NCBI RefSeq assembly: GCF_900156025.1
Contig: NZ_FTMO01000001.1
Span: 372,001-436,000, forward strand
DNA length: 64,000 bases
Direction: 5' to 3'
Source: Allobosea sp. TND4EK4
GTDB lineage: Bacteria > Pseudomonadota > Alphaproteobacteria > Rhizobiales > Beijerinckiaceae
Below are positions 12,124-57,323 of this stretch, one piece after another (within the stretch, counting starts at the first letter, position 1; each line of letters opens with the position of its first letter). The notes under the pieces were generated by a model that saw only the letters and a program-made list of their open reading frames with translations, searched no databases and had not been told where the DNA came from. A program made the position numbers and the translations under genes.

Positions 12124-13095
12124 TTATTCGGCGGCGGCCGACGAGGCATCGCCGCGCAGTTCGCGCGGCAGCGGGAAGAACACGTCCTCGCTGGCCGTGG
12201 AGACCGTCTCGACGCGGACATCGTAGCGTTCGGCGAAGGCGTCGATGATCTCCTCCACCAGCACTTCGGGCGCGCTGGCCCCAGCCGTGATGCCGAGGCT
12301 GCGGATGTTGCCGAAGGCCGACCAGTCGATCTCGTCGGTCCGCAGCACGAGGCGCGCGACCGGGCAGCCGGCGCGCTCGGCCACCTCGCGCAGGCGCTGC
12401 GAGTTCGAGGAATTGGGCGAGCCGACGACGATCAACCCCTCGACCAGCGGGGCGACGCGCTTCACCGCCTCCTGCCGGTTGGTGGTGGCGTAGCAGATGT
12501 CTTCCTTGTGGGGTGCGATCAGCTCCGGAAAGCGGGCCTGCAGCGCCTCCACGATCTCGCGGGTGTCGTCGACCGAGAGGGTGGTCTGGGTGACATAGGC
12601 GAGCGGCGCGCCGGTGGGCGGGTTCAGCGCCGCGACATCGGCCAATGTCTCGATCAGCGTGATCGCGCCCTCGGGCAGCTGCCCCATCGTGCCGATCACC
12701 TCCGGGTGGCCGGCATGGCCGACCAGGAGGATGTGGCGGCCGCGCTTGTGGTGGACCTCCGCCTCGCGATGCACCTTGGTGACCAGCGGGCAGGTCGCGT
12801 CGATGGCGAAGAGACTGCGGGCCTTTGCTGCGGCCGGAACGGCCTTGGCCACGCCATGGGCCGAGAAGATCACGGGGCGTGTCTCGTCCGGCACCTCGTC
12901 GAGCTCGGCCACGAAGACAGCGCCCTTCCGCCTCAGCGATTCGACGACGTATTTGTTGTGGACGATCTCATGGCGGACATAGACCGGGGCGCCGTGGAGC
13001 GAGAGCGCCTTCTCCACCGCGTCGATGGCGCGCACGACCCCGGCGCAGAAACCACGCGGGGCACAGAGCAGGATATCGAGCGGCGGCTTGGTCAC
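12124..13095 (-). CDS. ispH: 4-hydroxy-3-methylbut-2-enyl diphosphate reductase
   Basis: This is the last enzyme of the MEP isoprenoid pathway, an iron-sulfur reductase. With the GTG start at 13095 it has 323 residues. The three cluster cysteines are at about 17 (APRGFCAGV), 102 (DATCPLV) and 201 (DICYATTN). The substrate motif [11 protein letters not shown] is intact. The frame is open to 13182, but the extra 29 residues are not conserved and run into the MarR operator, so the GTG next to the core is preferred. It sits upstream of thrB on the same strand. Confidence 0.93.
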
Positions 13096-13184
13096 GCGCC
13101 TTCGCACTCCGGTCGGGGATGGAGCGCCTTCTTTCGGCGGGATGGCCGTGATGTCAAGGAAACCTGTGGCGGGCCACCGCATAA

Positions 13185-13196
13185 GTTGATATCAAC
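13185..13196. promoter_or_regulatory. Palindromic operator GTTGATATCAAC (MarR gene)
   Basis: This perfect 12-bp palindrome ends 3 nt before the MarR ATG at 13200. On the minus strand it continues as GTTGATATCAACTTAT, which is identical over 16 nt to the site at 57244-57259. Position and symmetry suggest autoregulation by the MarR protein, and it also lies upstream of ispH. Confidence 0.65.
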
Positions 13197-13199
13197 ACA

Positions 13200-13694
13200 A
13201 TGATGGAGCCACGGATACCAGTTGTGCCCTTCGCGACCACGCTGATGGTTCGCGATCGCTGCCTGTGCCTGCATGCGCAGCGCGCGGCCCGCGTGCTGGC
13301 ACGCCGTTTCGACGACGCGCTGCGCCCGCATGGGCTGACCAACGAGCAGTTTTCCCTGCTGATGGCGCTCAACCGGCCAAAGCCGCCCTCCATCGGGGCG
13401 GTCGCGAAGACGCTGGGGGCTGATCGCACGACGCTCACGGCCGCGCTCAAGCCGCTGGCGCGCGAGGGATTGGCGGATGTCTCGCCCGATCCGGAGGACC
13501 GGCGCTCGCGCCGGGTGGCACTGACGGCCGCCGGCCATGCGCGGCTGCTGGCGGCGCTGCCGGTCTGGCTTGCCCTGCACGAGGATCTGGAAGCGCGCCT
13601 CGCTGCCCCGGACGCGCAGGAGATCCGAAAGGGCATGGAGACACTGGCCCATTGGTCGACCGAAACAAGAACAACGGAGGAGACAACGCCATGA
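13200..13694 (+). CDS. MarR family transcriptional regulator
   Basis: The 164-residue product is a MarR winged-helix regulator. The recognition region is SIGAVAKTLGADRTTLTAAL, followed by LAREGLADVSPDPEDRRSRRVALTAAG, here the wing with the family DxRxR signature. It is a dimer that normally dissociates from DNA on ligand binding or cysteine oxidation; Cys residues lie in DRCLCLHAQ. Its stop overlaps the GST start as ATGA. No ribosome binding site fits before ATG 13200 because the operator occupies that place. An internal ATG at 13245 or leaderless translation are possible. Confidence 0.9.
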   Translation: MMEPRIPVVPFATTLMVRDRCLCLHAQRAARVLARRFDDALRPHGLTNEQFSLLMALNRPKPPSIGAVAKTLGADRTTLTAALKPLAREGLADVSPDPEDRRSRRVALTAAGHARLLAALPVWLALHEDLEARLAAPDAQEIRKGMETLAHWSTETRTTEETTP

Positions 13695-14341
13695 CCATTC
13701 AGGTTTCAGCCTTTCGCTGGGTTCCACCCTTCGCACAGGGCCATGTGCGCGACCTCAGGGTGCGCTGGGCCCTGGAAGAAGCCGGCCTGCCCTATGAGGC
13801 CTCGCTCATCGGCCGCGAGGACCAGGCTTCTCCCGAATACCGGGCCTGGCAGCCCTTCGGGCAGGTGCCAGCGTATCGGGACGGCGAGGTGGAGCTGTTC
13901 GAATCCGGCGCGATCGTGCTCTATCTCTCGCGTCAATCGCCCGCTCTGGCGCCCGAGAACGAGGCTGGCCGCGCGCGGGTCGCGAGCTGGATCCTGGCGG
14001 CGCTGAATTCAATCGAGCCGCAGGTCGCGCAGCTCGCTCTGACGGACATCTTCCACAAGGGTGAGCCCTGGACGCTGGCGCGGCGCCCGCAGATCGTCGA
14101 GATGGTCGAGAAGCGCCTGACGCAGCTCGAGGCCTGCCTCGGCGACAAGGCGTATCTCGAAGGCGTTTTCTCGGCCGGCGACCTGATCATGGCCAGCGTG
14201 CTGCGCAGCGTGCCGGACGACATCCTCGCCGGCTTCCCCAAGCTCGCGGCCTATCGGGCCCGCTGCCTCGGCCGGCCAGCCTTCGGGCGCGCGCTGGAGG
14301 CGCAGCTGGAGCCGTTCCGCAAGCACGCGCCGGCGGCGTGA
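13691..14341 (+). CDS. Glutathione S-transferase family protein
   Basis: The 216-residue product has an N-terminal thioredoxin-like GST domain (residues 5-85) with DLRVRWALEEAGLPYEASL, seen in part, and the conserved FGQVPAYRDGEVELFESGAIV cis-Pro/Ser-Gly region, also in part. An all-helical C-terminal domain follows, with FSAGDLIMASVLR. GSTs conjugate glutathione to electrophiles. It is translationally coupled to MarR, and GGAGGAG upstream gives a strong ribosome binding site. The pair looks like an electrophile-responsive detoxification operon. Confidence 0.9.
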   Translation: MTIQVSAFRWVPPFAQGHVRDLRVRWALEEAGLPYEASLIGREDQASPEYRAWQPFGQVPAYRDGEVELFESGAIVLYLSRQSPALAPENEAGRARVASWILAALNSIEPQVAQLALTDIFHKGEPWTLARRPQIVEMVEKRLTQLEACLGDKAYLEGVFSAGDLIMASVLRSVPDDILAGFPKLAAYRARCLGRPAFGRALEAQLEPFRKHAPAA

Positions 14342-57018: not shown

Positions 57019-57323
57019 TCATCCCGCCAAGGGATTGAGTCTCCGAGGCAACATTCCGATTGGAACTGGCGGGCCTGCCGGAATCAGGCGTCCTGCTCCC
57101 GCAGCCTGACCGTCTTTCCAGCAGCCTTTGCGGCTGCATCGGAACGCTCGAGCTGGCGGCATCGCCGCGCGTTTTTGGACCGGCAGCGATCTTCGATTCG
57201 CCCGCAGCTCCAGCCGCTCGCTTGACAGCCCCGCCTCATATGCGTTGATATCAACTTATATCTTGTGAGGTTCCAGCCTGGCTTAGCAGTAGCCCTGCGG
57301 CCACAGATCGAAGGGAGACGTTC
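57019..57323. other. Gap between tRNA-Ser and the VOC gene
   Basis: No gene is supported in these 305 bp. The last 100 bp hold a TTGACA -35 element and the GTTGATATCAAC operator, listed separately. Confidence 0.5.
57222..57259 (+). promoter_or_regulatory. Promoter and GTTGATATCAAC operator of the VOC gene
   Basis: TTGACA at 57222-57227 is followed 17-18 bp later by a degenerate -10 (TTGATA or TGATAT). The perfect palindrome GTTGATATCAAC (57244-57255) overlaps the -10. The 16-nt GTTGATATCAACTTAT is identical to the minus-strand reading at the MarR gene (13181-13196). Binding of the MarR protein here would block transcription of the VOC gene. Confidence 0.68.

Follow-up and report, generated by a model that had tools for sequence, protein, structure and literature searches.

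A conserved palindrome as the predicted common operator of a MarR-GST operon and a distant VOC-MFS gene pair

Do two detoxification loci that lie 44 kb apart answer to the same regulator? The question is raised by a window of 64,000 nucleotides (the whole stretch of DNA analysed here), in which the plus strand reads ATAAGTTGATATCAAC (reverse complement GTTGATATCAACTTAT) at 13181-13196 and GTTGATATCAACTTAT at 57244-57259. An earlier note on this DNA had pointed out this identity over 16 nt and the perfect 12-bp palindrome within it, and both are present as described, the palindromic core being GTTGATATCAAC in each copy. There is no third copy of GTTGATATCAAC with two or fewer mismatches in the window. 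The note had also placed the second copy over the -10 region of a TTGACA promoter; TTGACA is indeed followed, after a gap of 17 bp, by a TTGATA that lies within the site. From these observations it was proposed that the MarR protein encoded beside the first copy runs a small regulon with a glutathione S-transferase (GST), a VOC protein and perhaps an MFS carrier. Two exact sites, the pairing of MarR genes with the palindrome and the presence of the palindrome at VOC-MFS genes support this proposal. On the sequence evidence assembled below, the palindrome is very probably a docking site for a repressor that would switch two detoxification operons together, and we consider it highly likely that the MarR protein encoded at 13200-13694 has GTTGATATCAAC as its operator and would autoregulate MarR-GST and repress VOC-MFS. 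A switch of this kind is ordinary for bacteria; the operator is strikingly conserved.

Table 1. Positions of the genes and predicted control elements of the two loci in the window.
Feature	Position	Strand	Basis
Putative MarR-family repressor, 164 aa	13200..13694	+	Pfam MarR_2 38.2 bits (cut-off 27), MarR 37.1 (24.6)
Glutathione S-transferase gene	13691..14341	+	Pfam GST_N 46 bits (cut-off 20.9)
VOC-superfamily (PhnB/YjdN-like) protein, 147 aa	57324..57767	+	Pfam PF06983 35.1 bits (24), Glyoxalase 30.4 (20.6)
MFS carrier, 403 aa	57807..59018	+	Pfam MFS_1 193.9 bits
Operator 1 (predicted), palindrome GTTGATATCAAC	13185..13196	.	Directly 5' of marR; core also found 5' of MarR relatives
Operator 2 (predicted), palindrome GTTGATATCAAC	57244..57255	.	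Covers the likely -10 TTGATA (57245-57250)
TTGACA, likely -35 of the VOC-MFS promoter	57222..57227	+	TTGACA-like element at equal distance in 21 of 26 distinct VOC promoters

All four proteins pass Pfam cut-offs, and none of them reaches a named NCBIfam cut-off; against the YjdN model the VOC protein scores 76.6 of 122, under the cut-off. The marR start codon is the ATG at 13200 or that at 13203, and Cys21 and Cys23 are the only cysteines of the protein. The GST gene overlaps the marR stop by 4 bases, and the two genes are probably co-transcribed. The MFS gene lies 3' of the VOC gene on the same strand, and the pair, which recurs in loci of the genus, is likely to form an operon. The gene neighbouring operator 1 is one that we take, from the translated letters by eye, to encode IspH. 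Its ORF start, as listed at 13182, almost touches the operator; the likely start is a GTG at 13095, a minus-strand TTGACA at 13157-13152 could serve the gene, and its control by operator 1 is not favoured. A defence function for the MarR was considered and dropped, PADLOC having given one weak CARF match (E 4.7e-4).

The association between the palindrome and these genes was examined at loci picked for their protein, regardless of any site, taking 300 bp 5' of each gene and 30 bp past its start. The best 80 of 575 MarR relatives in the species genomes come from Alpha-, Beta- and Gammaproteobacteria and Acidobacteria (Caulobacter, Rhizobium, Sphingomonas, Microvirga, Roseicyclus, Bordetella, Pigmentiphaga, Paraburkholderia and Salinicola, besides acidobacterial records), and 77 of these 80 have the palindrome upstream with zero to two mismatches. 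In 53 cases it is exact, in 8 it has one mismatch, and in 16 it has two; all 16 of the last have the form ATTGATATCAAT and belong to records with Rhizobium or Rhizobiales in the title. The siteless members are two from Bosea and one (L219) with almost no upstream sequence. In a control stretch of equal length about 1 kb farther 5', available for 78 of the 80, the best match had two mismatches once, three mismatches six times and four to six in the other 71. The MarR has, at the level of sequence, a palindromic candidate operator at its own promoter that is conserved 5' of its relatives. The best 28 MarR loci at family level (27 from other genera, 1 from Bosea) comprised 24 with an exact site and 4 with one mismatch, and among the best 30 loci within the genus, the window's own included, 20 were exact, 1 had one mismatch and 9 were siteless.

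The VOC orthologs at 30 of the 33 genus loci divided into 14 with an exact site, 4 with one mismatch, 8 with two and 4 without a recognisable site. The 30 DUF1428 loci examined included 10 exact sites and 2 with one mismatch (one in G012, the other in G040, which is without the MarR), the remaining 18 being siteless, 16 of them in MarR-positive genomes. The siteless MarR, VOC and DUF1428 loci say that membership of the regulon shifts; they do not thereby make the pairing false. In Alsobacter soli (L210) a single palindrome lies between a subfamily MarR gene and a divergent VOC-MFS pair. A plasmid collection held 230 records with a match, and VOC genes were near the site in all three that were examined: Sinorhizobium meliloti pSymB (exact), Paracoccus denitrificans plasmid 1 (exact) and Paroceanicella (ATTGATATCAAT).

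A consensus was derived from promoters selected for a site with at most two mismatches, 113 distinct ones of MarR genes and 26 of VOC genes. TTG...CAA is invariant throughout this set. Flanking bases are favoured as well: T at -2 (93 of 113 MarR and 24 of 26 VOC promoters), A at -1 (92 and 21), T at 14 (85 and 11) and A at 15 (86 and 24), and the operator is therefore better written in extended form, approximately TANGTTGATATCAACNTA. At each site in the window, one extended half (TAN-GTTGAT) is perfect and the other shows a single departure, which explains why 16 rather than 12 bases are identical there. The two promoter classes place the operator differently. In 21 of the 26 VOC promoters a TTGACA-like element (at least 5 of 6 bases) starts 22 bases before the operator, so that the -10 falls inside it, and the window copy conforms. 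In 81 of the 113 MarR promoters such an element starts 11 or 12 bases before the operator, which consequently fills the spacer; in 22 of the 113 the best -35 match is the operator's own TTGATA. The bases 3' of the operator also form the -10 in MarR promoters, the two signals overlapping. The stretch around the site before the window marR (13140-13199) has, in contrast to most relatives, no good TTGACA-like -35 at 11-12 bases before the operator, and since the start codon comes 3 bases beyond the site, the transcript may be leaderless or may arise from another promoter.

The co-occurrence of regulator and site was followed in 61 Bosea genomes, the MarR subfamily being called at E <= 1e-20. Exact sites were found in 40 of these genomes, 64 sites in total, compared with one match in each of 3 genomes for the reversed control. 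Both MarR and exact site were present in 38 genomes and both absent from 19, with four discordant cases (MarR without an exact site in G012 and G052, an exact site without MarR in G011 and G054). The resulting Fisher P of 1.4e-11 overstates independence because the genomes of a genus are related. VOC orthologs (E below 1e-80) were present in 33 of 40 MarR-positive genomes and in 0 of 21 MarR-negative genomes. As to surroundings, 27 of the 64 sites are at a subfamily MarR without VOC, 5 lie between a subfamily MarR and a divergent VOC (L020, L037, L041, L093, L104), and 12 are 5' of VOC with no MarR in the adjoining stretch examined. The other 20 adjoin neither a MarR nor a VOC ortholog, and 13 of these lie 5' of a DUF1428 gene; this call rests on domain matches beside all 13 sites, one protein having been scanned directly. 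Three sites (L019, L081, L085) are between a second type of VOC gene and an isochorismatase-like gene, L089 is between a PhnB-type VOC and a TauE-type permease, and L075 has a GFA-like ORF about 260 bp away. The only exact sites in MarR-negative genomes, L023 (inside a long ORF; G011 and G054 are the genomes concerned) and L040 (no ORF passing the filter), look like background. In the window's own genome DUF1428 has no match, and the second VOC type is matched only weakly (27% identity, E 8.6e-4).

Four of the Bosea genomes (G001, G008, G020, G033) have two subfamily MarRs. The first is found next to ispH-GST and the second is divergent from VOC; the core is the same at both. The window arrangement looks like the outcome of losing the second, VOC-side MarR, which would leave one regulator for two operons. 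The genome of the window holds 11 MarR-type matches at E <= 1e-3, but the window MarR is the only one at E <= 1e-20 and the second best is 34% identical; it is thus the only subfamily candidate for both sites, and we infer that one regulator serves both in the source strain. A MarR dimer would bind the palindrome 5' of its own gene, giving autoregulation of MarR-GST, and a dimer at the VOC-MFS promoter would cover the -10 and block RNA polymerase. Release of the MarR, whether through a small ligand or through the effect of an oxidant or electrophile on the conserved Cys21-x-Cys23, would then induce GST, VOC and MFS together.

What might the MarR sense? The Cys-x-Cys at window positions 21 and 23 is present in 68 of 68 distinct MarR relatives aligned, and its columns are invariant in an alignment of 21 sequences. 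The predicted model has a winged helix-turn-helix (pLDDT 88.5). The pair is at the start of helix alpha1 and aligns with the redox pair of MosR (Rv1049), an oxidation-sensing MarR repressor of Mycobacterium tuberculosis. MosR is the best PDB sequence match to the window MarR (E 2.6e-19), and its DNA-bound form 4fx4_B is the best structural match to the model (rmsd 1.3 A, 36% identity). The accessible part of PMC5823404 links the loss of DNA binding by MosR to a disulphide that joins Cys10 to Cys12 in helix alpha1. MosR shares with the window MarR the Cys-x-Cys at the start of this helix, the likeness being one of sequence and fold only; it comes from a distant phylum, and its target as given in that part of the source is a secreted oxidoreductase (PMC5823404). 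Given the conserved Cys-x-Cys, the likeness to MosR and the GST and VOC targets, an oxidant or electrophile is the likeliest signal, and by this analogy the chances that the MarR works as a thiol switch appear about evenly balanced. A cysteine alone is not proof of redox sensing: in S. meliloti, according to the available portion of the published account, four other cysteine-bearing MarR genes were deleted in turn, and each deletion raised a neighbouring gene, but only 2 of the 4 neighbours answered to oxidants. It is quite possible, if short of probable, that the MarR responds to a small ligand such as a phenolic and not to thiol oxidation, the Cys-x-Cys being structural. Most MarR proteins are ligand-responsive, as stated in the same part of PMC5823404, and Saro_0803 of Novosphingobium is released by resveratrol in the extract seen of PMC10046596; the occurrence of Cys-x-Cys in every aligned relative, in register with the MosR redox pair, and the presence of GST and VOC proteins among the targets count against a ligand.

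Other known systems resemble the predicted thiol switch in part. The one-Cys and two-Cys redox regulators OhrR, EstR and SydR of rhizobia and agrobacteria are, in the sections available of PMC11633110 and PMC5201249, autoregulated through palindromic operators that lie over promoter elements, as here, and have an N-terminal sensor cysteine. Their operators as quoted in those sections (SydR, TATCGCGATA; EstR, GTTATCGCGATAAC; Agrobacterium OhrR, TACAATT-AATTGTA) differ from GTTGATATCAAC (PMC11633110, PMC5201249). The resolving cysteine that two-Cys OhrR has in its C-terminal helix is absent from the window MarR, which has only Cys21 and Cys23 in its 164 aa, and against the NCBIfam model of Vibrio OhrR (NF052638) this protein scores 28.2 of 200 bits, below the cut-off. 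Saro_0803, which regulates nov1, is likewise an alphaproteobacterial MarR with an A/T-rich site near the -10, but that site is described in the same extract as an inverted repeat GCAATA...TATTGC (PMC10046596); with its family (NF053777) the window MarR scores 33.4 of 200 bits, below the cut-off. In the open-access searches made we found no description of this regulon: judged by the titles listed, no paper dealt with a MarR operator with TTGATATCAA, and none came up on a MarR tied to DUF1428, to glyoxalase and GST, or to these two with isochorismatase.

Two further readings concern operator 2. It is unlikely, in our estimate, that a divergent MarR paralog, since lost, left the VOC-MFS copy behind as a relic without working control in this genome, the palindrome serving as operator at marR. 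Such a history is suggested by the four genomes with two MarRs, of which the window's genome has kept one; yet the site and its -35 spacing are intact at the window VOC promoter, the remaining MarR belongs to the subfamily that owns this operator, and in other genomes 12 exact sites are kept at VOC orthologs that have no MarR beside them. That another regulator uses the palindrome at VOC-MFS is still less credible, and we hold it to be very improbable. The genome does have its 11 MarR-type matches, and the survey covered MarR-type regulators; against this, the remaining MarRs are at most 34% identical among the matches listed, none of them has an exact core beside it, both exact cores being accounted for, and MarR and site are gained or absent together across the genus.

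The rarity of the site bears on the common-operator reading too. The earlier note had called a shared 16-mer in 64 kb very unlikely, and in this form the claim does not hold, since the window holds 30 distinct pairs of places with a 16-mer in common. In a window of 68% GC, the operator pair is the most AT-rich of the 30, at 25% GC, the next lowest being 50%. A search of the whole genome, as the note had suggested, found exact GTTGATATCAAC twice in 4,718,307 bases (60 contigs), both times within the window, and the reversed control had no exact match in the same bases. The note had held that many unrelated hits would speak against it; with only two exact sites in the genome, the result favours its reading. 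The count expected is 0.027 from base composition, 0.023 and 0.044 from first- and second-order Markov models of the window, and about 0.10 from the rate in the 21 MarR-negative genomes of the genus (2 sites in 97.8 Mb). Sites with at most two mismatches number 71 in the genome, versus 7 for the reversed control, and the inner core TTGATATCAA is kept only at the two window sites. Further targets were sought at one site with a single mismatch and two TTGRTAYCAA sites, and none was adopted, two lying inside ORFs and one about 300 bp past a gene end. Chance identity of two AT-rich promoter stretches, for which the 30 pairs sharing a 16-mer might be cited, deserves practically no credence and was rejected on the rarity of the site (2 found versus 0.02-0.10 expected), the recurrence of the 12-mer 5' of the same genes in many genomes and its co-occurrence with the MarR in the genus.

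The pairing may extend well beyond this genome. We lean neither for nor against the wider idea of a widespread, unnamed thiol-switch regulon, in which one MarR subfamily with an invariant Cys-x-Cys would act through a near-invariant TTGATATCAA in Alpha-, Beta- and Gammaproteobacteria and Acidobacteria on a changeable set of GST, VOC/PhnB-like, DUF1428, isochorismatase-like and MFS genes, one Bosea subclade seeming to have dropped autoregulation and to have moved its VOC operators towards ATTGATATCAAT-like forms. If so, DUF1428, a family of unknown function, would gain a regulatory context, one that the poorly understood YjdN-like VOC proteins and DUF1428 would have in common with glutathione transferases. 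A motif first seen by eye would become a regulon open to test, its regulator named, its list of targets short and its operator summed up in an 18-bp consensus; many soil and plant-associated bacteria could be annotated with it, and the inducing chemical could be searched for with a reporter.

Several loci depart from the common arrangement. In the Bosea subclade the MarR is without a recognisable upstream palindrome (L117, L122-L124, L129, L130, L133-L135; also L207 and L220, in which an isochorismatase-like gene is divergent from the siteless MarR). In six genomes of this subclade (G018, G022, G044, G051, G055, G060) the VOC promoter has a two-mismatch site in which TTGATATCAA is intact, and DUF1428 has exact sites. 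Judging from these promoters, autoregulation was possibly lost there and the operator shifted. At L278, in the MarR-less genome G040, GTCGATATCAAC lies 58 bp 5' of the DUF1428 gene and is possibly a decayed operator. Finally, a VOC relative with 72% identity was found at L246, in a 2.5-Mb genome of another family (G237); it is the sole match at E <= 1e-35 in 189 other genomes of the class, and horizontal transfer is a possible explanation.
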